From Diphasiastrum complanatum (Eukaryota; Streptophyta; Lycopodiopsida; Lycopodiales; Lycopodiaceae), in NCBI GenBank assembly GCA_029204225.1, contig CM055099.1, positions 63,580,626 through 63,644,625 of the forward strand: 64,000 nucleotides of DNA, given 5' to 3'. Shown one piece after another: positions 3,089 through 45,668 of this stretch (positions are counted from its first letter, which is position 1; each line of letters opens with the position of its first letter). The notes beneath the pieces were generated by a model, which did not search any database, was not told the origin of the DNA, and saw only the letters and a list, made by a program, of their open reading frames with translations. A program made the position numbers and the translations under genes.

Positions 3089-3144
3089 GAAGCCCTATTC
3101 AAGTGAATTGCCATGGGACTAGCAACCTTTTGGCAGTGGGGGAG

Positions 3145-4811
<1,667 letters not shown>

Positions 4812-4823
4812 TGGTAGGAAATC
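4812..4823 (+). other. Primer binding site, Ty3/gypsy copy 1
   Basis: TGGTAGGAAATC starts right after the LTR end and is conserved in the inverted copy at 24604-24615. TGG is the expected complement of a tRNA CCA end. It is not the common iMet site, and I did not assign the tRNA. Confidence 0.6.
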
Positions 4824-4826
4824 AAT

Positions 4827-5700: not shown

Positions 5701-6700
5701 TTGTTATCTAAGGAGGAGTTGTGGCATAGACGGTTGGGACATCCTAACTTTACATCTATGTCTTCTATGGTTAAGAAGGAGAAGGCTATTGGTCTTCCAA
5801 AATCGCTTTCTAAAGATTTCAAGCCTTGTGAGGCTTGTGTCATTGCAAAGTCAAACAGAAGGCCATATCAAAAGTCCTTTATAAAGACTACTTATCCATT
5901 GGAACTCATACATTCAGATGTATATTTTTCTTCTTCTAAAAGTATTGGTGGTGCAACATGTTTTGTCACCTTTATTGATGACTTTACTAGATACACTTGG
6001 TTGTATCTACTTTCTTCAAAGGCTATGGTTTTTTATCACTTCCTTATCTTCAAAGCTTATGTAGAAAAACAGTTTTCTTGCAAAGTTAAAGCTTTAAGAT
6101 GTGATGGAGGAGGTGAATATATCTCCAACAAGTTTCATAATTATTTTGAAGGTGAAGGAATAAAGAGAGAATTTTCTTGTGCCTATTCTCCATCCCAAAA
6201 TGGAGTAGCTGAGATGAAAACCAGATATTTATGTGAATGTGCTAAAGCAATTCAAGTAGCAGCTTCTTTGCCTATTGAATATTGGGGTGAAGCTATAAAT
6301 TGTGCAAACTATTTGTGCAATAGATTACCTCACAATGCTCTTGCTGGAAAAACACCTTTTGAAGTCTTGTTTCAGAAGAAACCTAAGGTAGATCACCTTA
6401 GAGTTTTTGGTTGTACTTGCTTTGTTAATATGCCCTTGGAAACAAGGAAAAGAGATGACCCTAATTCTGTTAAAGGGATCATGGTTGGATATGCATCCAA
6501 GAAGAAAGCTTACAGAATCTATATTCCCTCTACCTCAACTACAATTGAGCCTGAGTAGAGATGTTATATTCCATGAAGATCAAAAATACATTCTTGAGAA
6601 GGCCGAGTTCAAAGATTCTCACAAAGATACTCCAATCATCACTCTTGAAGACCATCATGGAGAGATGGGGCCAAGATTTGAGGAGTGACCTCGAATTTTT
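5701..6700 (+). pseudogene. Ty1/copia GAG-pre-integrase and integrase, element A
   Basis: The frame is open from 5701 to 6558 (285 codons). It starts in the GAG-pre-integrase region (ELWHRRLGHPNF, then CEACVIAKSNRRPY). The integrase core follows with catalytic residues in HSDV, RCDGGGEY and SPSQNGVAE, so D, D and E all look present. The C-terminal KPKVDHLRVFGCTCFV and GYASKKKAYRIY motifs are typical of copia. Around 6560 the frame breaks, and the linker to RT (6561-6770) lies in other frames. No gag or protease lies upstream: the 5' part of the element is missing at about 5700. Confidence 0.93.
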
Positions 6701-6769: not shown

Positions 6770-8350
6770 GTGGAAACCACTAATTGTGCCTATTTTATTT
6801 CTCACGAGGAGCCGAAGGATGTATATGATGCTATCAACTCAAAGGGATGGTACCTTGCCATGAAGGAGGAATATGATGCTTTGATGGCCAATAATACATG
6901 GGAGCTTGTGGATCTTCCATCCAACAAGCATACCATTGGTTGCAAATGGGTTTTTCGAATCAAGTATAATCAAGATGGCACAATCAACAAGTACAAGGCT
7001 AGGCTTTGTGCTAAAGGCTTTGCTCAAGTATATGGACTTGATTATGAGGAGGCCTTTGCCCCAGTTGCAAAGATGGTGTCAATTAGAATCATGATTTCTC
7101 TTGCTTGTTTTTTCAATTGGCAAATTCTTCAACTAGATGTTTCTAATGCATTTCTAAATGGCAATCTACAAGAAGAGATCTATATGGATCAACCTATTGG
7201 GTTCATCCATGATGAAGGAAAAGTTTGCTTGCTCTTCAAAAGTTTATATGGATTAAAGCAAGCTCCAAGGTCATGGTATTCTCAACTTAACACCTTTCTT
7301 GAGTCACTAGGATTAAATCTTAGTAACTATGATCCTTCCTTATATGTCAAGTTTTTTGATAAAGATATTGTCATCCTTCTTATTTATGTGGATGATATCA
7401 TTCTGACAGGAAGTTGTATCAATTTAGTTGAGGAAACCAAGATTGCACTTGGAAAAGAGTTCAAGATGCAAGATCTTGGAAAAATTCACTATATTCTAGG
7501 ATCAGAGATTGACTTTTTTAAAGATAAAGCTTTTGTATGTCAATCTAAGTATGCTCTTTCAATGTTAAAAAAGTTCAATATGTTGAATTGTAAGAGTATA
7601 GAAACACCTATGGAGCAAAATGTAAAGGACTCTAACAAAGGTGATGAAAGATCCTTCGAGGACATCACACTTTTTAGAAGTCTTATAGGCTCCTTAATTT
7701 GGCTCACAATAACTAGACCTGACATAAGCTTTAGTGTTTATAACTTGAGCCAGGCTATGCAAAATCCTTCAGTTTATCATTGGAAAATAGCCCAGAGAGT
7801 GCTTACATATATATCTTCAACTTTTGATTTTGGTTTATTGTATAAAAGTGAAGATCTTTCTATTATTAGTTATTCTAACTCGGATTTTGCAAGTGATAGA
7901 GGAGATCGAAAATCTACAAGTGCTTATGTCATATATCTTGGAGCAAACTTGATATCTTGGCTTTTCGAAAAGCAAGATACTATATCACTCTCATCATGTG
8001 AAGCTGACTACAAGGCGCTCATTACAACAACAAAGGAAGTGCTTTGGATCAAGAGGTTACTAGTGGAGCTAAAGAAACTTATGGAAGAAGATATACCTCT
8101 GATCATGTGTGACAACATTTTAGCTCAAGCCCTTGCCAACAACCCAATATTCCATGCAAGGAGCAAGCATATCGAAGTTGCACATCACTTCGTGAGAGAG
8201 AAGCTCATTGGAGGTGAAATCAAATTGGAGCACATCGACACATCATCTTGCATTGCTGATATGCTCACCAAACCTTTGAGCAAAAGTTCCTTCAACAAGC
8301 ATAGAGCCAACCTTGGAGTTATACCAAGATCCATGTTCAAATCAATATAG
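6770..8350 (+). pseudogene. Ty1/copia reverse transcriptase-RNase H, element A
   Basis: The longest open retroelement frame in the window (526 codons). RT (RVT_2 type) shows GCKWVFRIKYN, YKARLCAKGF, LDVSNAFLNG, SLYGLKQAPRSWY and the catalytic LIYVDDIILTG. RNase H shows YSNSDFASDRGDRKSTS, SLSSCEADYKAL, CDN and a [17 protein letters not shown] block, ending in ADMLTKPLS and GVIPRSMF. The domain set is complete, with no internal stop. It has no ATG near its left end and depends on the broken integrase frame just upstream, so it would not be made as part of a normal polyprotein. Confidence 0.93.
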
Positions 8351-8364
8351 ATCATTTTTAGGAG

Positions 8365-8945
8365 TGTTAAAATTGAAAAACAATCCATATTGATTTCTTG
8401 GCTTGCTACAAATGTTGAATCATGCAAGATAATGCAAAATGCCAAGTTTGGCCTACATAGAACTTGAGCTACATGGTTATGTATTATCTAGTTTGATAGA
8501 TGTAACTTGCATATAGTTTGTAGACATAGAATTAGCATGATTATGCTTGTAGAAACTCGTGACAATTCACATGCATTAATTGTAAGTGATCCATAGTGAC
8601 ATGCAAGGCATGCACAGAGTTTAATGGACACATGCATGATGATTTGGACATTTCTAGTTATAACTAGTACACTTGTAAAAAGTTGGTAGAATTTCATGCA
8701 TGACAAGTGACAAATGTCACATAGACTCTAGATGTCACTTTAGATGTCATTTTGGAATGGATGGATGTGGTTCTACCTTGAGCTACCTCAATCTCCATAA
8801 ATATGTGTAGCTCTCCACACAATCAATGATGAAGAACCAAAGTTTTGTGCTATCTCATGCCATTTTGGATCTAAACTAATATTGCTTGTTATCTCTCTAG
8901 CTTTCTCTCTCCAACTCTGCATGCACATGAATTAGTCTTCCGAAA
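8365..8945 (+). repeat. 3' LTR of copia element A (right end approximate)
   Basis: A purine stretch ending AGGAG at 8364 is followed by TGTTAAAATTG, the usual polypurine tract to LTR step 14 bp after the RNase H stop. The body is non-coding. The right end is uncertain: no partner LTR is present, and a weak TGGTATGGTAG resembling a primer site starts at 8948. Confidence 0.55.
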
Positions 8946-24173: not shown

Positions 24174-24603
24174 CTATGTGGATCCACACGTGTGAGGACC
24201 TGTTCTGAACACTTCCATAAACTCATCCCATGTGGTAGAATTTGTTTGCAGATCACACCACCACGACGAAGCTTTCCCACGAAAGAACATAATAACACTC
24301 TCAATCTTTTCTTCTTCAGGAATTTCATGTAGATTAAAATAATCGATCCACTTGGTTAACCAATCATCTACAACTTCGAATTTTCTCTTTCTTCTCTCCC
24401 GAAAAAGGTTCAAGCTGAAAGCCCAAATTTGGTATGGATAAAGTTTTCACTTGATTCAACAATACTTCCATTTGTTGATCCCTTAAAGTGTTCATGTTGT
24501 TTATTTCATTAAGCGCTTGGCTTAATGTCTGATAGATTTGCAGATAGGTAGGCATTGGCACCTGACCATCGAGAGCTGCATTTGCATAATCATCTACCAT
24601 ATT
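24174..24603 (-). pseudogene. Ty3/gypsy gag, copy 2
   Basis: Minus-strand gag starts MVDDYANAALDGQVPMP at about 24600 and includes NEINNMNTLRDQQMEVLLN. After a frameshift near 24390 it gives the retrotransposon gag core: VVDDWLTKWIDYFNLHEI, ESVIMFFRGKASSWWCDLQ, TTWDEFMEVF. The W-x-x-W-x-x-YF and L/F-x-G-x-A-x-x-WW pattern is the classic Ty3/gypsy gag signature. It is truncated at about 24185 against a copia LTR. Confidence 0.88.
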
Positions 24604-24615
24604 GATTTCCTACCA
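24604..24615 (-). other. Primer binding site, Ty3/gypsy copy 2
   Basis: On the minus strand TGGTAGGAAATC follows an LTR ending in GCA. It is identical to the site at 4812-4823. Confidence 0.65.
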
Positions 24616-26798
24616 TGCAAAATTAGCTTAATTAGTCGAGATCCAATCATCAACTAATAAGTGAAAAGTTCAAAACCTCATAACTGGACGATCTTACTCA
24701 ACAAGGTCTTTCACTCAATTTAAGAAAAATTTCACAAAATCAATATAAGACTGATTTATACAACAACAACTTTTAGGACCAAGTCTTAAAATTTATGAAC
24801 CCTATAATTTTCGAAATCCGTCCGAAATGGACCAACTGTGAAAATCAATTAAGAAATCAATTTAACAGATTCACAGGCATTGTCACATTTTGAAATTATT
24901 TCTAAACATTATGCATGTATCTAACTTGACATGCACGAAATTTTTCAAAAAAATGATTTTTTTTTCGTAAAAAGCCTATTTACTAGGAAATCAGCTTTTT
25001 GATCTAAAACTACCAAAAATAACTTCATGTAAGAAATCTATTGATCAATCTATTGATTACGCATGCAACATCCATCCAAGCATGCATGCAGGTCTAGCTA
25101 TACATTTTTATCAATAGACAAGCACTATACTGAATTACAAGCATGCATGCATCAGAACATTTCCAAAATTTTGCAAACTTTAGTTCAAAAATTGCCAAAT
25201 TTCAGATGACCATAACTTTCTCTACAAGAAACCGAATTGGTTGATGTAAAGCACAGTACAGGGGAAGATAGGTCTACAAGGCACTTTCTATATCACACTA
25301 CCACCTAGGCTTCACACATGCGAGCAATAAATGACCAAAATTTAGGTAGTAGGGCACACTTTAGGAAGGTGGTATCATCAATATTGTACTCCAGCCCAAT
25401 AAGCATCCCATTAGAGGTTACAAAGCACTCTACTAAGGTTCATTAGAGAGGCACAGAAGCTTCTAATAGGTCCAGCAAGCAATCATAAGCTTAGATCATG
25501 CAAAAACTCCATTTTTGGCCTCCTTCAACAAGCAAAACTTCAAGATGATGGTGTCTAATGTTCACCTATCCAAATTGGATGCATGATGGCTCAAATCAGA
25601 GGAAATCCATCATATCTTTAAGCTTTTAATGTAACCAATAGGTTCAGACCCCCATTTGAAAGGTTTTCATGCCCGAAAATCACCAAAAATACACTATTTT
25701 TTTTATGTTTTGAGGCCTCTAATGGTGTGTCCAATCCTAACCAAACTTCATGACAGCCCTAGGATAGCTTCATTACACCTTTGAAATCGTGCTTACCAAC
25801 TATTGTCTAAGAATGTTGAGATCCACCATAAAATTAAGTCAAAAAACATAAAAAAACCATTATTTTTGCCAAAATTTGACCAATTTTGACCAAAATTTTT
25901 GGGATAAATGTTGTCAAGAAGTAGAAGGCTTCCACCTTCTTCTCCTAAGCATTTGTAGCATGGGAAGTAGGGCTCGAACCTAGGAGTCTTGAAGATGCAT
26001 GCAAAACCAAAAAGCTTAACACTATTTCTACTAGCAAGCAAGATGCCTTGAAAACACAACTAAAACCAAATAGTACTAACTTTAAAACCAAAAGCACACT
26101 AACTCTAACACACTCTTTCACACCTTCTCCTCTCTCTCTCTCTCTCTTCCCTCTCTACTCACTCATACACTCTTCCACAAATTATCTACAAAGCTCCACT
26201 AAACTAGAAACACACAAAGATTAAGCACATATGCTAACATGGGCTAAAATAGCAAGAAATTAGAAACAAAAGCAATAAGCATAAAGCCATACTATAATTA
26301 GCCAGACACCAAAATTAGCACAAGTGGACCCAAAATGGTAGCACTTAGCTCTCTTGCATTAAGGATAGAAAGTACATAAAATGGCTTCTTTTAATAGAAG
26401 CTTGTGGAGTGTCCTTTCCACATTTACTTATGGGACTAGGGATGTCAAGTCTCAATATAGAATGTAAGCTCTTTTTAGATTCTTGACATTGACTTTTGCA
26501 TACTTTTTTAAGTCTAAGTTTAAACCTTGGGATTTGCAAAATTTGATTTCTTGCCCCCTAGTGACTAATGACACCACAAGTTGGACTTCTGCACACAAGG
26601 TGCCATACTTGGGGCCTAACACCACATATCTACTAACAACTCTTCAAGATAGGCTTACACGCACATGATGCCATGCTTGGGCCATTAATTACACAAAATT
26701 GATATTTATATTGCCTTCTTCCCTGTAAGGTACTACTTTCTTCAGTTCTCCCGAGCTCCATTGAAATGCCCCTTAGGCCTTGTATTCCGGCCCCCACA
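24616..26798 (-). repeat. LTR of Ty3/gypsy element, copy 2
   Basis: On the minus strand it starts TGTGGGGGCCGGAATACAAGG at 26798, after GGCAGTGGGGGAG, and ends TTTTGCA at 24616, giving TG...CA ends. It is longer than copy 1 (2.18 versus 1.67 kb), with additional sequence around 25010-25290 and 26160-26490. Copy 1 and copy 2 lie in opposite orientation about 20 kb apart. Confidence 0.85.
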
Positions 26799-27402
26799 CT
26801 CCCCCACTGCCAAATGGTTGCCAGTCCCATGGAAATTCACTTGAATAGAGCTTCCTGCAGCTTGGCGTCTTGCGCTTCAATGTTCTTGTGGATTTCCTGG
26901 ATGAGTTTTCTGTAACCCTCCGGTGCTTGGGCTCGTATAGTGTTGTCATCCTTGAGAGGCCCGAAGACATGGGAGCTATGGGGCAACCATTGGGAGCGTT
27001 GTCACTCTTCCACTCGTGCTGCATGTTGGGATGCCATCATTGCTGTTCGGTAATAAATTCGTGCCACGGTTAACTGGTCCTTACATTAGAGACTAGGAAA
27101 AGTGGTGTTGGGATCGAAAAACAAGGGACCCAAGGAGTGATCCCAATGGCATTTGAGAGTACTAAGGAAAGCAAGCTCCTTGCAGTTGAGCGCTGCTTGC
27201 TGCACCATGGAATCAATTGATTGGTTGTGCCTGCGATGAAACTGCTCCAAGGCATACTGGAAATTTGCTTGGTTCTTCCAAGTCCTGGAGTTTGGAATGA
27301 TGGGCTAGTTTGGTGGTGCACTGGCATCCTTCTGCTTTTCTGGCCACGTTGCTCGCATGGGGATAGGTAGATAGATTGGATTCATGCGTAGATACCTAGG
27401 AA
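26799..27402 (-). pseudogene. 3' extra ORF of Ty3/gypsy element, copy 2 (C-terminal part)
   Basis: Matches 2540-3144: MNPIYLPIPMRATWPEKQKD, then ALEQFHH-like and WNHSLG-like blocks, ending near GLKKKTPSCRKL. It has frameshifts. The match begins exactly at a CCTAGG-containing stretch (about 27391-27402), where copia element B sequence takes over, so the junction cuts both elements. Confidence 0.75.
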
Positions 27403-29181
27403 TTCGATCTTCAGATTTACAAAAAGCAAGATCAATGGCTCCATCAAGAATTTTCTCTCGAACAAAATGGTAGTGTATTTTGATGTGCTTGGTTCGAGCA
27501 TGTAGAACTGGATTTTTGGCAAGGTGAATGCAACTTTTAGTCACATCCACCTGTGGTTGACCTAAATCCACAAGCAATCTTCGTAACCATACCGCTTCTT
27601 GTGTAGCATTGCTGAGTGCTTGATATTCAGCTTCCGTCGATGGTAAGACTATTGTAGGTTGCTTTCTGTTGTTCCATGAAATCGCAGTTGTACCATAACT
27701 GAATGTATGACCACAGGTAGATCTTCTATCATCAATATTACATGCCCAATCGGCATCTATATAACCTACCAACATTGGCACTTCAGGCTAATCATACTTC
27801 AAGCCAAAATTCAATGTCCCTCGAATGTATCTGAGAATACATTTAGCAGACTTTCAATGTGCTTGACTAGGATTTTGCATAAATTGACTAACAACACCAA
27901 CAACATAAGAAATATCAGGTCGTGTGTGTGTCAAATAAATCAAACTACCCACCAGCTGTCTATACAGATAAGCATCCACTTTTTCAGATTCATCATATGC
28001 AGTAAGCTTCATGTTGACATCCATAGGTGTACTCAAAGGCTTACAATCCTGCATATTGAACTTATAAAGAAAATCTCGTGCATATTTGCTTTGTGTAAGA
28101 AAGACCATGTCTTCCTTTTGCCATACTTCAATGCCAAGACAATAGTGCATCAATCCTAGATCACTCATGTCAGAAGCATTGGAAAGATCTGATTTTATTT
28201 CATCAATTAAGCTCTCATTACTTCCTCTAATAATCAAATCATCCACGTACAACACAATGAACACTATATCTGAGCCTTGCCTTAGAATGTAAAGATTAGG
28301 ATCATCATCACTCTTTACCATTCCCCTTCGCTTGAAGTGTCCATCAATGCAAGAGTACCACACCCGTGGTGCTTGCTGCAATCCATAAATGGCTTTGTTG
28401 AGCTTACAAACGAGATGCCCTCTCACTGGCTCAACAAATCCTTGAGGTTTTACTAAGTACACCTCTTCATCCAGCACTCCATTAAGAAAAGCAGATATAA
28501 CGTCCATTTGTTGGATCAACCATAGAAAACAGAAATAGCAATGATAGAACATATAGTTACCATCTTAGCTACAGGTGCGAAGGTTTCCTCAAAATCAATA
28601 CGTTCCTGCTGCTCAAATCCTCTCGCAACCAACCGTGCTTTGTACTTGTTGAGTTGCCCATCAATTCCATATTTGATCTTGTATATCCATTTGCAAGTGA
28701 TAGGCGTCTTACCATCAGGTAGCTCAACCAAGTTCCACGTCCTATTTTTTGTTATAGCTTCCATTTCTGTTTCCATAGCTTCATGCCACTCCTTGTGCTC
28801 CTTTGCTTTATCAAAAGTTTTTGGTTCTTGAGCCTTGAGCACAGAACCCATTAGGGCTAGATTCATCTCTAATCTTGCAGGAGGTTTTCGATTTCTACTT
28901 GATCTTCTAAGCTCTCCCTGCTCACTTGATTCGGCAGTATCTCCCTTATTAGCATCACTTCTTACTGACAAGTACCACTTAGGCACTCTCCTAGGAATCT
29001 CATTATTGACCCTGTCTTTTTCCATTAGCTCTTCCATATCGACACCAACTTCTTCCTTCACTTGCACTTTAGCTTTATCATCAAAGGGATCAATTGTCAA
29101 TTTTATTTGGTCATTTTGACCCATCTCATCAGAAGTAGCATCTCTAGAAATCACGATCTTTTGTGCATCTATGTCATACAT
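27403..29181 (-). pseudogene. Ty1/copia RT-RNase H, element B
   Basis: Minus order: integrase-RT linker (GELRRSSRNRKPPARLEMN), RT start (WHEAMETEMEAITKNRTWNL, CKWIYKIKYG, KARLVARGFEQQ), a break near 28520, then MDVISAFLNGVLDEEVYL, GLQQAPRVWY and IVLYVDDLIIRGSN with YVDD intact. Then GLMHYCLGIEVWQKEDMV, TPMDVNMKL and RPDISYVVGVVSQFMQNPS. RNase H has GYIDADWACNIDDRRSTCG, PSTEAEYQALS and HARTKHIKIHYHFVREKI. RNase H is cut at CKSEDRI|PRYL, where the gypsy 3' ORF starts. The lineage is distinct from elements A, C and D. Confidence 0.92.
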
Positions 29182-31617: not shown

Positions 31618-33116
31618 CTAGCTTGGCAAATCTAGCATAGATCTATCTATAACTCCAAGAGCCAATCTTAATTTTATAAATGGACCTTTGGGCAATGCCT
31701 TGGTGAGTATATTAGCAATGCAATCTGATGATGAAACATGAATAAGCTTGATCTCCTTTGCTTGCACTTCCTCCCTCACGAAATGATGTGCAATCTCGAT
31801 GTGCTTTGTTCGAGCATGGAAGACTGGATTGTTTGCAAGTTGTTGAGCTGCTTGATTATCACAATATATGCAAGGAATATATTCATCCTTGATCACATGT
31901 AGCTCCTCCAAAAGTCTTTTAAGCCAAAGAACCTCCTTTGTTGTTGTTGTCATAGCTTTATATTCGGATTCTGTTGATGAAAGAGAGATGGTATCTTGCT
32001 TTTTGGAAAGCCAAGATATAACTCCTCCACATAAGAATGTAGCAAATGCACTTACGAATCTTCTATCCATCTTGTCACCTGCAAAACTTGAGTCCAAATA
32101 TGCTCTCAAACAAATATTAGTCCTTTCATAAACTATGCCAAATTCTTTTGTAGCCGAGATGTACCTTAACGCCCTTTTTGCTTCTTTCCAATGGCATATT
32201 AATGGACTTTGCATGTATTGACTCAACTTGCCAACACAAAAACTAAGATATGGTCTATGATAGTTAAGTATATCAAGGAACCAATAAGCATTCTATAGGT
32301 AGTGATGTCCTCAAAGGATGCTTCATCACTTTTCTTGAAAACTTTTACACTTAGTTCCATAGGAGTTTCAACTCCTTTACAATCAATCATGCCAAATCTT
32401 GCTAAGATTGATCTAACATACTTAGATTGACATATGAAGGTAAAATCATTACTTCTAGTGACTTCTACTCCAAGTATAACTATAAGAAGTCCTAGATCTA
32501 CCATCTTAAATTCACTAGACAAGGAAACTTTTACATTCTTGATGTCATCTAGATCATTTCCTGTGAGTATAATGTCATCAACATATAAAACTAAGATAAT
32601 GATCTTTCCATCATTACATTTGTAGTATAATGATGGTTCATAAGAACTTACAACAAATCCAATGGAAATAAGATAGGAATGCAACCTAGAGTACCATGCT
32701 CTTGGTGCTTGCTTGAGTCCATAAAGACTCTTCTTCAAGAGACACACCTTGTCTTCTTCTCCATTTTTTATGAAGCCCTTGGGTTGGCACATGTTGATTT
32801 CCTCTTCCAAGAATCCATTCAAGAAAGCATTTGTCACATCAAGTTGGAAGAGCTCCCATTTGAAAGAAGTTGCAAGAGATATGATTAATCTAATGGTCAC
32901 AAGCTTTGCAACAGGTGCAAAGGTTTCATCATAATCTATGCCTTTGACTTGCAAAAAACCTTTTGCTACGAGTCTAGCTTTGTACTTATGAATGGAATCA
33001 TCTTGATTATTTTTCAATCTATATATCCATTTACAAGTAAGAGGCTTCTTTCCATAAGGTAAATCAACAAGTTTCCAAGTTTGATTTTCCATTACTGCAT
33101 CAAACTCTACTTGCAC
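31618..33116 (-). pseudogene. Ty1/copia RT-RNase H, element C
   Basis: An almost continuous minus-strand frame: CKWIYRLKNNQDDSIHKYK, LDVTNAFLNGFLEEEIN, SLYGLKQAPRAWY, LVLYVDDIILTGND, a frameshift near 32225, then RNase H with [59 protein letters not shown] and ANILTKALPK. Only one clear break, so this is one of the better preserved copies. The SDADFAG aspartate is Ser-Ser here (LDSSFAG), which may affect RNase H. Confidence 0.93.
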
Positions 33117-34257
33117 ATAGTAGTCAAGAAAGTATAAGAGTTGACTAGTTGAGAATCTTCCCTTTGCTCCCCTTTATCACTATAAGTGAGCGTTGATGGC
33201 TCAATCCTTGTCCTTGTTGATCTTCTTGGCACCCTTGGACTTGGAGTAGATTCCACTTGGTCTTCATCTTCATGAAGCTCCTCCTCGGCCATAGCATGAT
33301 CTTTGACAATTTGAGTGTTGTTGGAAGTCACCTTTCCTTTGGCTTGGAGAGATTCATCAAAAAGTACATTTCTACTAGCAACAACCTTTTTTGTAATAGG
33401 ATCATATATCCTATAAGCTTTCTTACTTTCACTATAACCAACAAAGATGCCTTTGAAAGAAGTGGCATCTTCCTTTTTCCTTGTTTCTAAAGGAATATGT
33501 ACATAACAAGTACATCCAAAAACTTTCAAATCACTAAGATTTGGCTTTTTGCCAAACAATACTTCATTAGGTGTAAGTCCTTTAATCGCACTATTAGTCA
33601 TTCTATTACAAAGAAAGTTTGCACATAAAATAGCTTCTCCCCAAAATGAAATAGGAAGAGATGCATCTAATCTCATAGCTTTAGCATACTCACATAGTGT
33701 CATGTTCTTTCTTTCAGCTACTCCATTTTGTTGTGGAGTATATGTACAAGTAAACTCTCTCTTTATGCCATTAATTTCACAAAACTCTGTCATCCTATTG
33801 GAGATGTACCCCCCTCCATTATCACTTCTTAATACTTTCAAGCTAGTATTAAGTTGCTTTTCCACAAGAGTTTTGAACTTTACAAAGGACTCAAAAACTT
33901 CATTTTTCTTAGACAAGAGATAAACCCAAGAGTATCTTGATTTATCATCAATAAAAGTGACATACATAAGAGCTCCACCATTCGATTCATGTGAAAATGA
34001 ATGAACATCCGAGTGTATAAGGTCAGAGGAGAGTTAGTTCTTATCAAAGATCTCTTTAAAGGAAGCTTATGAGATTTGGAGAGTCCACAAGCTTCACAAA
34101 GCTTTCCACACTTGGATATGGTTTTGGGAAGTCCTCTTGCTAACTCCTTTGTCACCATGGTCTCCATAGCTTTGTAGTTAAGATGGCCTAACCTTTTGTG
34201 CCATAATTCCACTTGAGTGAGCTCCTCCCTTGCCATGTTCACACTTTCAACCATCAC
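33107..34257 (-). pseudogene. Ty1/copia integrase, element C
   Basis: The main frame 33107-33967 has TFIDDKSRYSWVYLLSKKNE, SDNGGGY, PQQNGVAERKN (catalytic Glu present), FWGEAILCANFLCNR, LKVFGCTCYVHIPLETRKK, and the linker PSPRVPRRSTRTRIEPS. Upstream (33880-34257) is the GAG-pre-integrase piece ELWHKRLGHLNY, CEACGLSKSHKLP, with a frameshift that splits the first catalytic HSDV near 34015. Nothing of gag or protease remains: the element is cut at about 34262 against an unrelated multi-exon gene. Confidence 0.92.
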
Positions 34258-34265
34258 ATTAGCTT

Positions 34266-36720
34266 ATGATGACATTGTATCATCTACATTTGGATATCCC
34301 TACTGATTTGGCACCTTTGCAAAGAAGAGGAGGCAAAGGAATTCAAATATATGTTGAGGATCGTTCTCATTATAGGGCATGAGGAAAGAAGAACTTGGAT
34401 TTGTGGACAGATGAAAAATTATATTCTCAAGATCCAAGCACTTTGACACATCCCACATTCTCTTCAATAACTTATTTAGTTACATAGGATATTGTGAGAG
34501 ATTGCAGAACCATGGATAAAATTCACTTTTTAGAATGTGAGTTAATATGGATATCCTCTTATTGTCAAAATAGAGATTGTCTTCTCCAAAAGACATTAGA
34601 GAAAAATGAACAACTTAAAAAAAATAATGAATCATTACAGAAGATAACAATCAATATCAAATCAGAACTAGAGCAGATGCCATCAATCTTACAATCTATT
34701 CGATTACTTAAGGATGTGGAATTGGCTAAGAAGAAGGCATAAAATAAGAAGTGAAAGCGACAAAGTTACAAGGATATTCAAATACTTTCAAAGGAGGTTA
34801 TCGAAATAAAAGGATTCGTGCATTCAAGTAAGCATATTCTGATTTTTGTAACTTGATCAATGACATTTGGATTTAATTTTAGCTATGGTGATATTATGCT
34901 AACTAGCTATATTTTTGCAGGTCTGCATTAGTAGTTCCTCAGAATATTAAGGACAATGCTTCACTAGGAATGTCGTTGGCCTCAATATTGACATGCAAAT
35001 CCACAGAGTGTATCATAATGAACAATAGGAGTTCAAATGTAAAGTGCAAAATAATAGAGTCTTTTGTGGTGGACATTCAAAATTTTTTAGATAAGACTAT
35101 AGTTTAGGGTGCTTGTGATTTTGCAGGCATTAGCAGAGAAGAATATGCAACAATATTTAAATTTATTAGAGAAGCTTTTAAGCAAGTTCGAATTAGAAAA
35201 GTCCCAATTCCAAGGTCATATCACTTGAAGAAAGAGAGAGATACATTAAACATGGGTATGCATAAAATCACTAGTACTCCATTTCATATTGAGGAGGTGT
35301 ATGAAACTGATGGAAGATCAATATCCTATAATTCATCAAACAACTTATTTGTTGATCTAAATTACTTGCTGATATACATCATCACATTCTATGATATAAC
35401 CTTTGAAAAGGTGAATGACAAAATAATCATAGTACTTAAGTTAGATGAGTTAGAAATTGTGAAAGGGAAGAAGATGGAGAGGGTTAGTATAACTCTCATG
35501 AATGGTGCACTGTCACAAACAGAGGACCAAGAGGATTTTAGATTCAGTGTCCAGTCTGAAAATGATATATGGTAGTTGGCAGCGTTCTAGGTAACTAGCC
35601 TCATTATTACATTAGATTCAGTGAATAGTATTATTTCATAGTAAACTAAGTTTGATTAGTTCTTTGGACAGGTGCTGGAGGAGGATCATGATATATTATC
35701 ATGGATATTCTCAAGGACATCTTATCCTAGGATCATCAAGGAGCATATGGATGGAGGATTTCTCAATGTTCCAGGAGTTGGAGACTTCAATGTTGAATGG
35801 CACTTAGCAGGTAATTTGAAAATATTGAAATGCATGTATAATATCTCTCACGGTGCTACATCTAAACACCCTTGTTTGTATTGCATGAAAATGGCAAAAG
35901 ATCTTACTAGGAGTACAAGAATTACTAGAGAATATGCACATCCACACTGGAAGCTTGTGGTGCCTATTCCCTTGAAAAATGTGCATGTTTGCACTTCTCA
36001 TGCAGAAGTTAGATAAATATAAAAGATCATTTATCATCATATAGTTTTTGCTTGGAATAGTAAGCCAACATCATCCGCAAAGGAAGGCTTAACTATATCT
36101 CGATTAAAAGAAGTGTTATCGAAAGCAGGACTTCATAAGGGACATGTCAAAATTCAGAAAGATGAAAAGCTTTCAAGAAAGACAGGAAATATGCCAACTA
36201 AGCCAAGCATAGGAGGAGCAAAAGCACGTCGATTCCTATCAAACCATACTGGTAAGACTTCTGATATTCAACACTTGTTGCCACTTAGGACCTCGAGAAG
36301 AGCAGCAAAACTAGAGTACTAAAAGTTGATGTATGGAAGAAGCTTGATAAAATAATTGAAATTCTAAGAAAAGATAAATTCTCTGAATTGATAAGGTACA
36401 AAGGACTTGTGTCGAGTTTGTTGATGCAGTATCAAAAGCATGGGGAGAAGATCACATCACTCATTACATGGTTAGTATAAATTATTCAAGTTGCTTTTAA
36501 TTTTTTTATATATTTAGATCCAAACATAAAACTGACATTATGATTTTCAGATCTACAGCACATACTAAGAAATCATACAACATTTTTTTCAAACACATAT
36601 GGAAGCCTGAGTGTCTGGATAAGTCACATTGGCAAGCACAGGCAACAAATACACAACATGGAGGAACCAATGAAAAACGAAACTACATTTGTCAATTGTT
36701 TTAGTGGCTCTACCGCAGAG
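34266..36720 (+). pseudogene. Multi-exon transposase-like gene, unknown family
   Basis: A frame from about 34300 (CRTMDKIHFLECELIWISS, then a Lys/Glu/Asn-rich possible coiled coil) splices cleanly: donor CAA|GTAAGC at 34828 and acceptor TTTTTGCAG|GTC at 34921 keep frame into SALVVPQNIKDNASLGMS. Later parts are KIIIVLKLDELEIVKGKKME (35400-35490), an intron to an acceptor near 35671 and ISHGATSKHPCLYCMKMAKD (35840-35900) with a CxxC zinc-ribbon-like pair. Next are VPIPLKNVHVCTSHAEV and, after AG at 36550, FFKHIWKPECLDKSHWQAQA. Stops lie near 34368, 34480, 35104 and 36014. The mix resembles DDE-type transposon proteins, but I could not place it in a known superfamily. Confidence 0.45.
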
Positions 36721-36954
36721 TTCAATTGGACAAATAACAAAGTCCACACAATACAACAAGTTTAGAAAAGCATGCAAGTTCATACAGAAAGAGAGAAATT
36801 AGATGATTGTTGAATAGAAGATAACAAAGACATTCAGTCATCATTGTCATCAAATCATGACAAGTTCATAATTGCTTGCAAATTCATGAAACAAGAGAGA
36901 GGAACAATACTCAATGTAAATGTATTGATTGTATAATAACATAATACAAAGTGT

Positions 36955-38450
36955 TCACTCTTCATCATCAGCTTTTGTATCAGCTTCTATGGCTGTATTG
37001 TCATGAAGAAATTATCTGCTTGAGTATGCATCTAATAGATGTGCATTATCCTTGTTTCCACTAAGTTCAATATAAGTAGAGTACAATGAATAATGGGAGC
37101 TTCTGAAAGGAACATTCCCATCAGTAAAACCTAGAATGTTCAAAACATAAGATCTTTTGACAAAAATGATCTTATTTGTCTTAACAAATTTATGTCCTCC
37201 TAGATATAAATATAAAGCTTTAACTGCCATTATCAGAGTCTCCCCAACTGGGATCAGCTTCGAATGAGCAGTACAAATCTCATTCTTTAGAAAATGTCTA
37301 AGAGAGTGGCCAAGTCCACTATCGCTCTAGAACGAAGAAGCATGTTGTCTGTAACCACCTCATCTCAAAGCAGTCATCAATTATAAGGGCATCCTGCAAT
37401 AAAAAATATGCTAAGAAAAAACATTGAAAAGTAAACAACATTCATTGGCAAGGAAGTCAAAACACTTACACATTCTTCATCATCATCAGCAACCAGATCT
37501 GGATGATCAATATTATGACCACATACTGAAGAAAAATCATTTGTGAAATGCATTAATGATGGACGAGGGAAGCTCATCTGGGATTGAAATGTCGTGAATT
37601 CTTCATCAGATGGTATGCTTCGTCCATGCTCAACAAAATTTGACAAAGCTTTCGTCAAGCATTCTTCATCGGTCATTAGTCCATCCTCATCATCATAATC
37701 AATTCCAACCACAAGGTCATCTGTTTCAAAATCTACAAAGTCGTAGAATTCAGAAATTGTGCCAAATAATAAATATAGCACCTCATCCTCACGATAGTCA
37801 AAAAATTGATACAAATCAACTACAGTAATATATACATCGTCATTTATATAATACAGAGCAATTGAAAAGACATTTAGATTCATCTATAGACATTGAATCA
37901 TCAACATTAATATTATGGCCAATGAAAGAATCCCAAAGCACATCAGTATTTACATCAAGAAAATCACTATCCTTATCAGGGGTGTTGATAAGAAAGTGAC
38001 TAATATCTTTAAAGGATGATTGAACTAAGGATGATGCAATTTGAGTATCAGAAGGAACAACTTCCTCATCATCTGAGATCTGAACTAATAGAAAAAGTAC
38101 AAATCCAGTCTGTATTCAACAAAACAATATTTTCTATTGCGATAGGGACACATCGAAATGCTTTAGTAAACATTATATCTAGTCTCTGCTTGAACTGTGG
38201 GAAGAAATGGACAAGATCAATATAATACATGAAGGAGAGTGAACCTAAGGAGATAATAGGTATATTGAGTATATCCCTGAATCTAACATAATGGTCATAA
38301 AGTACTTCTGAATTAGGTTGCGCAGTCTTGAAAACATGTAAATATGGTCGAAATAGGTTGTGGAAGTAGTCTAAGTTGTCAGTTATTCCAAATTCAGTAA
38401 AAAAATGCACTTAGGCTCGTGTCACGGGTAGATCCGGAGGATGAGGCCAT
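36955..38450 (-). pseudogene. Acidic multi-exon gene, unrecognised
   Basis: ATG at 38450 in CCATGGCC context gives MASSSGSTRDTSLSAFF. A T7 run shifts the frame, then TEFGITDNLDYFHNLFRP to 38069, another shift, and an Asp/Glu-rich stretch (37466-38060: SDDEEVVPSD, DDEDGLMTDEECL, DDDEEC). GTAAGT follows near 37465, and an acceptor TTTATTGCAG near 37390 leads to DALIIDDCFEMRWLQTT. The last part (36957-37330) gives MAVKALYLYLGGHKFVKT and ends in KADDEE. About 430 codons in total, with at least three frame breaks. It lies between the transposase-like gene and the histone-like frame, on the opposite strand. No domain was recognised. Confidence 0.4.
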
Positions 38451-38550
38451 GGTAGTCGGACAAATATCGGTCCTGTGCACCACGTAAGCAATCCGAACAA
38501 AATAAATTGTAAAGAACGCACACAAGAGGGATACGTACGGTAGATAGCAA

Positions 38551-39160
38551 TGGTATATCGCACTTGTGCATAGGTATATGGCAAGCTACAACAGACAACA
38601 CAAAGTGCACGCACAAGAGATCTCACGAAATCCAAGAAAAAAAAACAAAAAATTAATCGGGTTGCATGCATTTTATAGGGCATTTTTTCACACGTGCGGT
38701 CAAACGGTCAACGGACACGTGTTGGGTCGCCATTTGTTTGTACGATTATGCACATGTGAACTGACAGTTGGACACCTATGAAATGACATCAAGACACATG
38801 TCACGTGGTCATTGCTTGGATTGGCGACACATGTTGCTTGCCCATTCATTTGTACGTTCACACACGTGTGAAATGACGATGTGACACATGTCACTAGGTC
38901 ATTGGTTGGATTGGAGACATGTGTCATTACTAGACTAAGTGACAGTTCGCACGTGTGACAAGACGATCTTTCACACGTGCAAACCACGATATAAAACTCA
39001 CAATCTACGAGAAATTTTTTCACTATTTTTTTTAGCTCTGCATATCGCACTTGTGCACCACTCTCTCATTCGCTATTCTACCTACTACCTTCCATGCGAC
39101 ATAGATCCGATATCCCCGCATACAGTCTCTGCATATCGCACTTGTACGCCCCTCTACTAT
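38551..39160. repeat. Short tandem repeats with CACGTG boxes between two divergent genes
   Basis: Two repeated themes. At 38690-38995, units of roughly 100 bp with ACACGTG(TG), GACACATGTCAC, GGTCATTG(G/C)TTGGATTGG and GACACATGT recur. CACGTG or CACATGTG boxes appear many times. At 38551, 39033 and 39129 the motif ATATCGCACTTGT recurs, the last two in a 96-bp repeat (CTCTGCATATCGCACTTGT). The region separates the minus-strand acidic gene from the plus-strand histone-like frame, so it is the shared upstream region of both. Confidence 0.6.
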
Positions 39161-39310
39161 ATTCTCTGATACCACTTATACTTCCCGCGCACTGGTCCGA
39201 TATACTCGTACATTATTTCCGTACATATTGCTTGTCTGCGAGAGCAGTCCACCCTTCTTCTTTCTATCTCGCTCATCGCACACAAGTTTGATACCCCTCA
39301 GACTACCTCA

Positions 39311-39817
39311 ATGGAGAGGAGAAAACATACCGAGAGAGATTTTTTCTTTGCTGATGCTTCCTCAGCCCCTTCCATTGCCATAAAGCTGACTCGAACTAGA
39401 CGGCGCAACCGCAGTAGGTGGCTCTATGATATTCATAAATATCAGAGATCAACCAATCTGCTAATCCAGAAAGCTCCATTATACTGTGTTGTCCGCCACA
39501 TCACTAGAGAGGATCTCAGTAGTTTTTTCAAATTCACACCCGCGGCACTTCAATGCCTTCAGGAGGCTACTGAGGACTATCAGAGCCTTTTTTTTTAAGA
39601 TTCATTTTTGCTCTCTATACATGCTAAGAGAGTAACTATTATGCCTAAAGATTTTCAACTACTCTATAGGATGCGAGATAGATACTCCAAATTACACATG
39701 TCTCGACCGGTTACTCCCAGACCAATTATCTTGAGCATACTGGTGAGGGCAAGGCTTCAGCCTCCCGTTGTTGATGATGGTGCTAAGGATGATGTTATTA
39801 TACTAAATAAAGATTAG
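39311..39817 (+). pseudogene. Divergent histone H3 / CENH3-like protein, one internal stop
   Basis: ATG at 39311 opens 168 codons in a single frame, broken only by TAA at 39596-39598. The histone fold is unmistakable: HKYQRSTNLLIQKAP (alpha-N and start of alpha-1), VVRHIT, then FTPAALQCLQEATEDY (alpha-2) and SIHAKRVTIMPKDFQLLYRM (alpha-3). The stop falls where H3 has Glu in its FED turn, so one G-to-T change explains it. The N-terminal tail (about 30 residues, MERRKHTERDFFFADASSAP) lacks the ARTKQTARKS tail. Loop 1 is about one residue longer than in H3, as in many CENH3 proteins. About 45 residues extend past the fold. AATAAA lies at the 3' end (about 39808). A stop read-through or a dead copy are both possible. 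Confidence 0.85.
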
Positions 39818-40139
39818 AAAAATATAGATAGCATAGAATAGATATAGATTGCACATGTATAGAATTGATAGAAAAATATACATTGGTATATCAAATGTTG
39901 TTCTATTTTATGAATTTGGGAGCCCAAAATACATGTACTATTGCCCAACTTGGGCTTTCATTTATTGAATGAAAGATTCTATACATAGATTTTTACTGAA
40001 CTTTATTTGAAGCTATTGTTCTTCCACAATGGTGATTGTTGTAGGTAGATCTTTGCAGCACAATTTCAGCTCCTGTCTTTTTCGCTGCTGTGACATGACA
40101 AATATTAGTGAATGTGCAATTGCAAATTATGTCATTTTC

Positions 40140-41485
40140 CATTATTTTATACTATTTTGAAATGGCAATAAACATAGAGTACTTATGAGTCTTCTGTTGA
40201 TAATAAATATGAAATAAGTTGGCAGATTGGTTTGTAATAGCATGAGCTCTGTTCCAATAAAATCAAGCGTCCAATGCTCTTCCAACTCAACCATAGTCAA
40301 ATATTCTTCATTGTAGATAATGCTTATCTCCATTCGGTTTGTGTGACCATTTAGTTTGAAGTCTTGATCTAGTGGTAGCCATGTACCTTCAATTTTCTTA
40401 TATCTCTGATAGCTAAACGTGAGACTGCGCATTTTTTTTTTGATATGATAACGAAAGATCATTGACGACTTTTAATCATGCATTCTATATCATTATTTGT
40501 TTTGCTATCCCAGCCTTGATCCATGAGATCTGACAAAGTCTCATCTGATAAATCCTTGCAAATAAATAAATTTGGTGTCCTTCGAATACTAGCACTTGAG
40601 AAAAAATCAACAAATATATGCAATGAGATAAACCAACTTAGGTGAACAATTTTTGAGCCCGTACTTATCTTCATAACATTTCTAACATCAATGAGTAGCT
40701 TGCATCTAAAAGATTCAGAAACAATATTGTCAAGAGTAGGCCACTCTTGAAACTAGGCAATAGATTGCTTCGAGCTTGCCAAAACCTCTATCTGTTTGTG
40801 GCAAATAGAAAGATTCATAAAAATATATACCACTATTTGCAAGTTCCTTTGGACTTCTTTCTCTGTATTGCAACTTTCCAACATCAGAGTGAATCACATC
40901 CAATATTCTCCTAGTGATTGTGCTGGCTCTCATTCACTTATGCATGATGGATATAAATTGAAAGAAAAAAAATGTTGAATAATTTAAATCGTAATCTGAT
41001 GAGCATCAATAAAAAAAACACCTATGATTGCAGTAGAGTGCATATGTCTTGATATGCTTTCAGTTACATTTTCGATGATCATGAGGATTGATATCTTGTA
41101 CTTTTATTTTGAATGCATATATACATGTTGTACTAAAACTTCTGATATCGAGTGACCTCTCGGAGTAGTCTTAAACTCCAAAATTTTTGCTTTCCAATAA
41201 GATTTGCATGTCAATTTTGCCCTTTTCTTTTGTCAAAAATTGCCCTTTGATGATGGATGCAACAACACCCATGAATTCTTCATATATTTTGTTGGCTTCC
41301 AGTTATCAGCTTCATCTTTCTCATTGTAAAGAATCGCAGACTCAATTTTAGATCTTGGTCTACTTGCCACTGCTATTTTCAAAGCTTGGGCGCCAAAAAT
41401 CTCTCTGATATGATACTTAATTTCAATTTTTTGTATCACATTTAATCTAATGTGAATGCCACAGTAGTCATAGTTACTGTGCATA
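40140..41485 (-). pseudogene. Unrecognised minus-strand gene, several pieces
   Basis: Adjacent minus-strand pieces: 41233-41484 (HIREIFGAQALKIAVASRP), 40730-40933 (MRASTITRRILDVIHSDVGK, ERSPKELANSGIYFYE), 40459-40674 (SKIVHLSWFISLHIFVDFF, LSDETLSDLMDQGWDSKTN) and 40142-40462. The 40459 frame is open upstream to about 40755, so pieces were probably joined by splicing or separated by frameshifts. No domain was recognised. It faces the histone-like frame tail to tail. Confidence 0.3.
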
Positions 41486-41785
41486 CTATATTTTTTAGGT
41501 AACTGTGCATACTATATTTCTATATACTGTAACTAGTATGGTTAGCAAATTTCATTATACTAACCAGCATAGTTAAGTAAATTTAACTTGAGAAATTGAC
41601 GTCGGGCAGATCAGCCAGGAAGAGCAAACCAATGGGATATGTCCATGCTGTCCAAACACAAATTTCAAAGTTTGTTATAATGTATTTTTATTTCTCAGTT
41701 TATTTGAGCTACGTTACATAGATTTTGAATTTGTGCATTTAGAGAAATAAAAGTATTTTTAAAGGGTCTTTTTTTATTTTGGAAC

Positions 41786-43245
41786 TCTTCTAATGGCTAT
41801 TTTGGATGGAAGGACACCTTTTGAGATGCTATTCAAGAGGAGGCCGAGTGTCAACTTTCTAAGAACTTTTGGATGCACATGTTATGTCAACATTACTCTT
41901 GCTGATAGGACCAAGGAGGATCCATCTTCAAACAGAGGTATTTTTGTTTGATATAGTGAGGTGAGTAAAGCCTACAAGGTTTACATTCCTTCTACTAACA
42001 AAGTGATTGTTGGTAGAGATGTCATTTTTATTGAGGGAAACATTCCAAAAGTGTCTTCAAGTATTATTGATGGTGATGTGGATGGATCTAACATTCTTGA
42101 TGTTGGTGTAAAGGATCCTACTTTAGACGGTGACGATGATGGACCTTTATGAAGTCAAAAGCCAAGGAGAACATCAAGTGAAAGACAAGTACCTTCAAGG
42201 CTCACATATGATGAAAAGGGTAAGCAAGTGGTTTCTAGAAATTATGTTGCTTTTCTAACCTCTTTTGATGAACCTACAAGTGTAGATGAAGCAAGGAAAG
42301 AAGAGGAGTGGATCCAAGCAATGGATCTTGAGTATCAAGCTCTTATGAAGAATGGAACATGGAGATTGGTAGAGTTACCAAAGGACAAGAAAGCTATTGG
42401 ATGTCTTCATGCTGTAAAATAAAGTAATGTATCTGAAAAACAAATTTTGTTCAATGACTTTGATGATCAAGTTGATGATCAAGAGGTTAATCTCAAAGGG
42501 CTTCAACAAGGCAAAAGAGAAGTTGGCAATTTGGAGCTAGTCAAGAGCATCAAAGGAGAGTGAATTGGCAAAGATGTTATGGATCTATTTTTGAAGGTTA
42601 TTGAAGACTCAAGTAAGGTCAAAGGAATATCAAGCAAGTGTTTTCAAATCTAGTTTACTTGTTCTATCTCATGTTTGAGCATTTTCATGTGGATGTGTGC
42701 AAATTGTCAAGATATGGTAAAACTAGCTACATTGGTGAGCATCATTTTGATGTTGGAGTTGTACTGGCATTCTTGGTTGGTTTTGTAGATGGAAATGAAG
42801 CTATTTGAGGTTTATTATCTCACTCATTCATGGTCAAGTCATCAAGTGATGATGGTCTCTTGTGGCAAGATGGAGATGGAGGCTCATTCATGGAGTGCCA
42901 TGGTGGATACATGGCAACAAAGGACAAAGAAGGAGGAGACATGCAAGCAAATGTTGATCACTCTCATTTATTTTTTGTTTGCTGTATTTTCTAGAGAGTT
43001 CAAAGTTGATAGCATGGAGGAATCATCTCATTTACATTCTATGTGATTCTTCATGTCATATTGAGGTGCAATATCATTTTGTGAGGGAGCAAATCGTTGC
43101 AAAGGAGGTGGAGCTTCAACATGCATCCTCAAAATAATGTGTAGCTAATATCTTCATCAAAGAATTGGGAAAGAGCTTGTTCATGAAGCATAGGATATCA
43201 CTTGGAGTGTTTTCAAAGTCATTCTAAAACTAGTTGAAGAGGAAG
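41786..43245 (+). mobile_element. RT-less copia family T, copy 2, internal part
   Basis: Starts inside the integrase C-terminus (AILDGRTPFEMLFKRRPSV, FLRTFGCTCYVNITL, KAYKVYIPSTNKVIVGRDV), with a stop near 41950. The linker (PSRLTYDEKGKQV, then DEARKEEEWIQAMDLEYQAL) and the first RT codons (TWRLVELPKDKKAIGCLHAV) follow. There, at about 42415, coding stops and the 0.6-0.8 kb non-coding middle shared with copy 1 begins. The end is an RNase H tail (HFVREQIVAKEVELQH). The 5' truncation at about 41785 abuts unrelated DNA. Family T therefore lacks RT by structure, not only by decay of this copy. Confidence 0.85.
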
Positions 43246-43855
43246 TGTGAAGATTCAACTAGTTTGATCATATTTGCTAAATTTCTATGTTTGGCAAATT
43301 GAGGCCAAATTTATTTTTGACTTAGAGTTTGACTTTTCAAAGTTCATTAGTCTAAATTTCATCTGAATAAACACTTTTTGAATGTGTGCAAAAGTTAGAA
43401 GTCGAGTTTGAGTGGATTTCAATTTAAATGTTGGGTACATTGAATCTAGACCCAGAAATAGTAGGGTTTACTTTGGAAAGCCAAGTGGCCAAATAGGGTT
43501 TGGACCTGTTATAAAAGGATGTAACTCATGAATGTAACTTATACATGGTTCTCTTGGGTTCTACTATATACTGAGTGCACTATACTTGTGATTGCTTGCA
43601 ATTCTATGTGTATAATGATCTATATTTGCTATTCTTGGATCCACACATGTGAAATACATTAGCTTGCTGGTTTTGTCCAAACAATAGTAGTACTTTATGT
43701 TTTGATACATGTTTGATCAAGTTCTATTAGAGTTTGCATCTCATTTTGTATGTAGATGCTAATTTTTCTACATTGGCAAGATTGGTAGAGTAGTTTCTTT
43801 TGTAACCAAAGATCCTTTGTAGATTTGGATCAATTATGATCTGAATTCTTTCACA
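43246..43855 (+). repeat. 3' LTR of family T, copy 2
   Basis: TGTGAAGATTCAACTAG...GAATTCTTTCACA, matching 22843-23490. Its terminal CA is joined directly to family-T internal sequence in reverse orientation at 43856. TATAAAAGG lies near 43511. Confidence 0.88.
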
Positions 43856-45668
43856 CAACTTCCCATTTAACTTGTTGAAGCCCTTTGAGCAACTTCTTGA
43901 TCATCAAAGTCATTGAAGAAACTTTTTTTTTCCAGATCCATTACTTGATTTTATAGCACATGATAACATCCATCCACTTGCATAGCATCATCTACACAAG
44001 AAGATTCACCATAAGATGTGAGAGAAGCAAAATGAGTTACTTCCACTTGCTTACCCTTCTCATCATAAGTGAGCCTTGAAGGCATTTGTCTTTTCCTTGA
44101 TGTTCTCCTTGGGTTTTGACTTGATGAAGGTCCATCATCATCACCATCTAAAGTAGGACCCTTTACATCAACATCAAGAATGTTAGATCCATGCACATAA
44201 TCATCAATAGTACTTGAAGACACTTTTGGAATGTTCCCCTCATCAAAAATGATATCTCTACCAACAATCACTTTGTTAGTAGAAGGAATGTAAACCTTGT
44301 AGGCTTTACTCACATCACTATATCCAATAAAAATAGCTTTACTTGAAGATGGATCCTCCTTGGTCCTATCATCAAGAGTAATGTTGACATAGCATGTGAA
44401 TCCAAAAGTTCTTAGAAATTTGACACTCGGCCTCTTCTTGAATATCATCTCAAAAGTGTCCTTCCATCCAAAATAGCACTCGGCCACCTATTGCAGAAGA
44501 AATTGGCACACAACAAAGCCTGATCCCAAAATGGTTTATCAAGATTAGAACTTAACCTCATGGCTTTAGCACTTTCACATAAAGTCCTATTCTTCCTTTT
44601 AGCCAGCTCCATTTTGTTGTGGGATCTTTTGTTGTATACTCCCTCTTGATCCCATGCTCATTACAAAAGGCCTTGAACTTGGTAGATATGTACTCACCAC
44701 CATTGTCACTTCTTAAGCACTTGATCCTTGTGGAAAATTGGTTTTCCCTTGCATTCTTGAACTTAACAAAGAGATCATACACTTCATCTTTGCTCTTTAG
44801 TAGATAGATCCAACAAAATCTACTAAAATCATTAGTGGAAGTTACATACATCTTAGCTCCACTATTAAGATATCCTTCCTTTTGATCATACAAGCATCTC
44901 GACTATGAGGCCTTTACCTAGCAATTGACTCACACTAAGCAAATTCTTGGTAATAGATGGAATAAACAAGACATCTATTGAGAGAGAAATATGAATTGTG
45001 CCAATCCCTTTGATTGCACACTCACATCATTGGTCATGTAGATCACCCTCTTGTCATCTCCATATGCCAACAAAGAAGTGAAGTACTCTTTGTGAAAAGA
45101 CATGTGTGAACTTGATCCATTATTAATCCACCAAGGATCTAGATCTCCATCATTAGCAATCATACATGAAGAAATCACAAAAGCATCATCATTTGCATCT
45201 TGAACATCCAAACCATCCTCATCAAGAGTAAGATTACCTTGCTTGTCTCCTTGATCTTTCTTCTGCTTGTAGCACTCACTAGCAAAGTGTCCTTTGATGC
45301 CACGATAGAAGCACTTGAGCTTTGATCTATCCTTTATTTTTCCATTTGAAGAAGCCTCCCCTTAATCTTGCGAAGTAGACTTGGACTCATAAAGCTTCTT
45401 CAAAGCTTTCCATGATGAAGTACACTTACCAATTTTCTTAAAAAGCTCATTGGCAACATTCATCTTGATCATGTGTAGAGCCCTTTTGGCCCTCTTATCA
45501 TACCTCACTTGATCTTGTTGTGTTTCTAGCCTCTCCTCCAAACCTACAACAATATCCAAAACATCATTCATCTCAAGAAGTGATTCCATCTTCAATTTCT
45601 ACAATGAATAGTTACTTGCGGTAAACCGATCAATGGCTTCCAACATGACTCCACTTGATGTTGCCATG
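43856..45668 (-). mobile_element. RT-less copia family T, inverted copy (gag to linker)
   Basis: Minus order: gag start near 45665 (MATSSGVMLEAIDRFTASNY, stop after YSL), MKMESLLEMNDVLDIVVG, KRALHMIKMNVANELFKKI; zinc knuckle CFYRGIKGHFASECYK, in which the second Cys is Arg; protease WWINNGSSSHMS, in which the catalytic Asp is Asn. Integrase has SDNGGEYISTKF, LRTFGFTCYVNITL and KVYIPSTNKVIVGRD, with a frame break at the QNG region. The linker has NPRRTSRKRQMPSRL and GESSCVDDAMQVDG. It ends at the start of the non-coding middle. Loss of the protease Asp and the knuckle Cys means the proteins would not work. Confidence 0.9.

Follow-up and report, generated by a model that had tools for sequence, protein, structure and literature searches.

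A histone H3 variant carried by a plant DNA transposon family with a predicted RAG1-like transposase

Introduction

Transposons that carry a histone H3 gene are already known. In the fungus Pyrenophora tritici-repentis, a hAT element combines a transposase, an unknown open reading frame (ORF) and an H3-like gene (26 H3L) with expressed sequence tag support (PMC3538342), and in Pseudocercospora fijiensis an H3 captured by a hAT element is represented by 784 H3-like copies, 90% of them truncated and all except the original inactivated by repeat-induced point mutation (RIP; PMC6710886). Histone fragments have also been reported in Helentron (PMC4067079), and a review gives two cases of viral H3s that are 75-77% identical to cellular H3 (PMC9145170). 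Here we describe a divergent H3 gene in a 64,000-nucleotide stretch of the Diphasiastrum complanatum genome (GCA_029204225.1, contig CM055099.1, positions 63,580,626 to 63,644,625; hereafter the window, whose numbering we use), and find that it is a dead copy of a gene belonging to a multi-gene DNA transposon family bounded by terminal inverted repeats (TIRs). A selected H3 variant common to two diverged lineages of a plant element whose transposase has a predicted RAG1 fold did not turn up in our searches of the open-access PMC literature.

The family resembles the fungal cases in pairing a TIR DNA transposon with an H3-like gene (PMC3538342, PMC6710886), but those elements belong to the hAT superfamily whereas the transposase here has a different predicted fold. 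The P. fijiensis copies are mostly truncated and RIP-inactivated, whereas the plant H3 is extended and bears a signal of selection; the cited parts of those reports describe no conservation between deep lineages, whereas the gene set here is common to two. As with the viral H3s, a selfish genome brings its own H3, although here it is a chromosomal transposon and the protein has extensions and a core that is 48-56% identical to host H3.1 in seven rows from lineages A, B and C. Our searches of the open-access PMC literature, a coverage that leaves out most subscription papers and preprints, turned up no plant transposon carrying an H3 of its own. The plant VANDAL DNA transposons encode an anti-silencing protein, VANC, and are thus similar in encoding a protein directed against their own silencing; VANC is not a histone, whereas the mechanism that we propose is histone replacement.

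The window frame is a decayed H3 variant within a dead element

A first-pass annotation of the window had picked out an intron-free frame resembling H3 or CENH3 within a transposon-like block. Four features define it:

39311-39817, plus strand: H3-variant pseudogene with a degenerate H3 tail, the histone fold and the start of a C-terminal extension (Pfam, PDB, alignments)
39596-39598, plus strand: TAA in frame within the H3 fold, at a position for Glu, common to copies L058 and L067
39725-39726, plus strand: internal deletion breakpoint, where L031 and L034 have about 1.25 kb more and L032 has 0.8 kb more (blastn)
34264-41795, plus strand: dead lineage-A copy of the H3-carrying DNA transposon (blastn against L031-L034 and right TIR)

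The histone fold proposed for the frame is confirmed by a PF00125 match (E 2.4e-22; 79.9 bits, cut-off 26.4), by top PDB chains that are H3s (E 2.8e-20) and by an 86-column alignment with host H3.1 at 50% identity. Loop 1 is longer than in H3, as had been noticed, by one residue in our alignment, and the H3 part indeed lacks introns. The frame is not open throughout, since the TAA at 39596-39598 limits the ORF to 95 aa. Among 18 aligned rows this codon is TAA in three (window, L058, L067) and GAA, GAG or AAA in 15; in the relatives fetched with 10 kb it is GAA in L031, L032 and L034 and TAG in L033. That three copies have the same stop suggests that broken-H3 copies may have been mobilised by others. 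An alternative genetic code in which stops are read as Gln was ruled out, because relatives carry codons for Glu, Lys, Arg, Gln, Trp or Leu at such sites and because, among changes private to the window, C-to-T (66/741) and G-to-A (88/748) are more frequent than A-to-G (49/1432) and T-to-C (33/1235).

Two further claims required revision. The canonical tail is not simply missing: the window's MERRKHTERD is a degenerate ARTKQTARKS, clearer elsewhere as MDRRKQTRRD and, in lineage B, ARTKQTARD, although an intact ARTKQTARKS including K9 was indeed not seen. Members of the family do have the C-terminal extension, but in the window a stretch after 39725 has been deleted and the end of the frame is consequently fused with DNA from further downstream; as the window retains that segment joined to its H3 frame, the gene may have one more exon.

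The surrounding block, 34264-41743, aligns piecewise at 72-91% identity (blastn) with L031-L034, the four lineage-A loci discussed below, with L033 covering it up to 39725 only, L034 from 35192 only and L032 without 36257-39281. The left element end is cut off at about 34263, where a copia fragment adjoins, and the right end is present.

A TIR-bounded family with copies listed on contigs C1 to C24

By comparing element ends, we identified the TIRs as CATTAGAGGAGTTCTCAATATCAAAAAGACCCTTT and its reverse complement. They are present at both ends of L031, about 8.2 kb apart, at the left end of L033 and at the right ends of L032, L034 and the window copy. Allowing up to 3 mismatches, a 32-base TIR core is found in the genome 1168 times on one strand and 1238 times on the other, counts that may include copies without H3, and a reversed control gave 0. 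TIRs together with a transposase place the family among class II DNA transposons. Eighteen of 20 fetched ends read CATTAGAGG, one reads TATTAGAGG and one deviates before AGAGG. TIRs of lineage B were searched for and not found.

A histone-family search of the assembly (1.745 Gb, 5176 contigs), in which 150 of 6325 candidates were scored with 153 matches, listed 13 canonical H3 genes, since confirmed as such, three last-exon matches and otherwise divergent copies. We cut out 17 divergent loci (L014-L030) and sorted them by eye into four of lineage A (the window type, for which 10 kb was fetched around each as L031-L034), 12 of lineage B and one of lineage C. A search with the window protein matched all 150 scored copies (of 7838 candidates), window included, at E<=1.5e-51. 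The listed copies are spread over all contigs C1 to C24, and a hand count gives 44 whose matched part is free of stops; all copy counts are lower bounds. At locus L043, two elements lie close together, one of lineage C and one divergent and A-like, with two different H3 variants within 3 kb (6018-6410 and 8063-8914), one of them with a MARAKQTTRAD tail.

The H3 variant shows a signal of constraint and keeps K4 but rarely K9

Full-length H3-variant proteins of 328-337 aa could be read from 11 of 12 loci fetched as listed stop-free. In each, an H3 domain of about 125 aa is joined by a basic linker to a C-terminal part. Median ratios of nonsynonymous to synonymous substitution (dN/dS) were 0.11 for the H3 core (pooled pN/pS 0.20), 0.33 for the tail, 0.50 for the linker and 0.34 for the C-terminal part, values biased downward because the copies were chosen as stop-free or most window-like. 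These estimates used the Nei-Gojobori method on 14 copies (L050 dropped as aberrant, L070 left out) and pairs with dS over 0.05, which amounted to 84, 73, 77 and 88 of 91 pairs for core, tail, linker and C-terminal part, respectively.

We next consider individual residues, using the H3 numbering and roles that we take to apply to them. Among 31 lineage-A copies, 29 have a readable tail, and in these K4 (29), T6 (28) and R8 (29) are nearly invariant, Q5 is kept in 22, and the K9 position is D in 20, E in 7, N in 1 and K in 1. In the core, H113, K115, R116 and L126 are present in 31/31, D123 in 30, T118 in 29 and R129 in 27, with K in 3. Lineage-B tails were readable in nine of 12 loci, the same nine with a pattern requiring K4 and with a K4-independent downstream anchor; K4 is present in 9/9, ARTKQTAR is exact in seven, and the K9 position is D (7) or G (2). 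In the open lineage-B frame of L015 (417 aa), about 300 residues that are SR-rich, Gln-rich, acidic and poly-Pro separate ARTKQTARD from the fold, and the long poly-Pro tract in this interval differs in length among copies (L015 and L037-L038).

A gene set common to two lineages

Lineage A carries four genes, encoding the transposase, an acidic protein, the H3 variant and gene 4, with the H3 and acidic genes divergent. In lineage B (four loci of 12, examined with 20 kb) all four genes have homologues, but the acidic-H3 pair lies in the opposite orientation to the other genes. A uniform tblastn with the window included found the transposase in 5/5 A and 2/4 B loci, H3 in 5/5 and 4/4, gene 4 in 4/5 and 3/4, and the acidic gene in 4/5 and 4/4, two of these partial. 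Matches between the lineages had E-values of 5e-53 for the transposase (45% identical), 5e-22 for H3, 2.7e-7 and 2e-10 for gene 4 and 6e-6 for the acidic protein. The remaining parts of the window copy are:

34264-36319, plus strand: transposase pseudogene in several exons (borders provisional) with many stops (70% identity to the L031 piece, 398 columns)
37380-38450, minus strand: acidic-protein pseudogene (gene 2), frame-shifted and oriented divergently from H3 (matches the L031 gene in three pieces, at best 72% over 83 residues)
38451-39310, no strand: upstream region common to gene 2 and H3, a putative promoter region, containing repeats of CACGTG-rich units and of a leader segment (repeat search; D1, D2, I6)
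40163-40423, minus strand: C-terminal piece of gene 4 (88.5% identical to L031 and 30.5% to its lineage-B counterpart, E 7.5e-10)
41107-41442, minus strand: N-terminal piece of gene 4 (81% identical to L032 and 33% to its lineage-B counterpart, E 5.5e-11)
41761-41795, no strand: right TIR with approximate limits, an altered reverse complement of CATTAGAGGAGTTCTCAATATCAAAAAGACCCTTT, terminal CATT (end comparison)

Window transposase stops at 34380, 34740, 34752, 35105, 35573, 35588, 36014 and 36020 correspond to sense codons in aligned relatives; a ninth, TAG at 34485, is also present in three relatives. The family's transposase has conserved D, D, Cx2C and Hx4H residues and is predicted to adopt a RAG1/Transib fold (predicted local distance difference test, pLDDT, 65; predicted template modelling score, pTM, 0.51), which would place it with the RAG1-core-like transposases. 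Besides this predicted fold, the family has in common with RAG1, RAG-like and Transib elements Cx2C and Hx4H pairs that recall ZnC2/ZnH2, and CA..TG termini (PMC7204232, PMC9435367); 39 Transib-like proteins have been counted in plants (PMC9435367). It differs from them in having no detectable RAG1 sequence match in PDB, ends of the form CATTAGAGG rather than CACWRTG, an H3 gene and no RAG2-like gene that we could find. A 5-bp target-site duplication was also not seen in three end pairs compared by eye (pairing assumed for two of the three), one of which has 3 matching bases. An MCM-like reading of the acidic gene, made by eye, received no support in searches.

A proposed role for the H3 in the element's own chromatin

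The H3 is very probably a resident gene of the element. This supports the element-borne origin that the first-pass annotation had raised, as copies elsewhere have the same neighbours, matching termini and intact H3 frames under purifying selection, and an H3 useful to the element is the most economical reading. Plants use H3K9 methylation to silence transposons. We propose that the variant is built into nucleosomes at or close to element DNA, as the kept H3-H3 bundle residues and K115, R116 and T118 would allow. With the R2-K4-T6-R8 tail face kept and K9 replaced by D, E, N or G, such nucleosomes could not carry H3K9 methylation, and element chromatin would stay open or readable as active; the kept K4 and bundle residues and the lost K9 together suggest incorporation into nucleosomes of this kind. 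The acidic protein carried alongside the H3 might serve as its chaperone, judging from its acidity and its pairing with H3. We give the whole explanation, a resident H3 that would keep element chromatin open or readable as active, a probability of roughly 0.7. The specific anti-silencing step, K4 kept and K9 lost, is more tentative and falls somewhat short of even odds; lineage A alone carries the argument. A broader picture, also below evens, is of a RAG1-fold plant superfamily that builds its own chromatin with a dedicated H3 variant and perhaps its own chaperone, escaping H3K9-dependent silencing with an ancient cargo common to several lineages and species. A selected histone within a transposon would make a direct, testable case in which a mobile element alters chromatin by replacing the nucleosome instead of blocking an enzyme; it would also offer many natural H3 variants without K9 and, outside animals, connect the H3K4 tail to a transposase of RAG1 fold.

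Several observations weigh against this explanation, in addition to the sampling bias of the dN/dS values. Stops interrupt the matched part in 106/150 listed H3 copies (hand count), one lineage-A copy keeps K9, and some DNA-contact arginines are lost among the 31 A copies (R63 kept in 0, R69 in 18, R72 in 17). In lineage B the frame is open from tail to fold at one of nine readable loci, L015, so that tail and fold as one protein is attested there by one copy. The RAG1 relation comes from the predicted fold at the modest scores given above; a profile search of PDB sequences with the transposase returned no RAG1, and Pfam RAG1 reached E 0.061 for one protein and was absent from the 25 families listed for 19 relatives. 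The acidic gene resembles nothing known in our searches, which leaves the chaperone idea without support from homology.

Alternative explanations

The element H3 might instead derive from CENH3 and act at centromeres, directing insertion there or biasing segregation, which we consider unlikely. In a tree with ten more H3s (88 columns), the element H3s group with two plant CENH3s and P0031 (91/93), and element H3s and CENH3 have in common an LLIP.APF-like segment and the longer loop 1. The branches in that tree are long, however; element rows do not form one clade in the best tree, with monophyly not rejected (p-AU 0.26). A 24-row tree disagrees: there every one of the 18 element H3s falls in a single clade (99/95) that excludes host H3 and the two plant CENH3s. 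Lineage-A tails also keep K4, T6 and R8 of H3, as most readable lineage-B tails keep ARTKQTAR, and copies are listed on every contig C1-C24. A host CENH3 was not identified among the genome H3 matches listed, for which two of the three last-exon candidates were fetched; these two (L044, L045) proved to be H3.3 genes with introns. P0031, a 391-aa H3 from another assembly with the tail MARTKQTMRK, aligns with the lineage-A profile over 123 columns (hhalign 99.2%), about 35 of them beyond the fold, and may come from such an element in another species.

Comparably doubtful is a tether or decoy, in which the kept tail would recruit or titrate host K4 readers or dock a RAG-like transposase complex on chromatin. 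RAG2 PHD fingers dock with methylated H3K4 (PMC7204232), and both the near-invariance of K4, T6 and R8 and the predicted RAG1 fold would suit such a role. Scans of 10 window pieces and 6 proteins gave no PHD or Kelch match, though, and dN/dS is lower in the fold core than in the tail.

More improbable still is that an ancestral element took up a host H3 message that was then amplified without use to the element. The captured H3 of fungal hAT transposons (PMC6710886, PMC3538342) and the many interrupted copies provide a precedent and a fit, but the low dN/dS, lowest on the H3 core even if from a biased sample, the homologous H3 in two lineages with transposases 45% identical, and the conserved K4 tail and bundle residues argue against it. 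Finally, dispersed processed H3 or CENH3 pseudogenes lying in repeats by chance would account for an intron-free frame with a stop, but are contradicted to near certainty by neighbours common on both sides, common termini and intact copies; no processed CENH3 pseudogenes without these neighbours were found in the loci examined, and the decay for which the first-pass annotation had allowed is real but is that of a dead transposon, not of a host retrocopy.

Other features of the window

Between the divergent acidic and H3 genes, CACGTG-type repeats occupy 38772-38979, and the leaders of both genes carry a common repeated segment like CTCTGCATATCGCACTTGTGCA. Ty1/copia fragments flank the element on both sides, at 31618-34254 (minus strand) and 41796-44851, and the right-hand region contains an inverted pair at 41818-42231 and 44043-44456 (92%). 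A large inverted segment pair at 2540-5046 and 24381-27403, about 20 kb apart and 83-98% identical in blocks, probably represents two retroelement copies.
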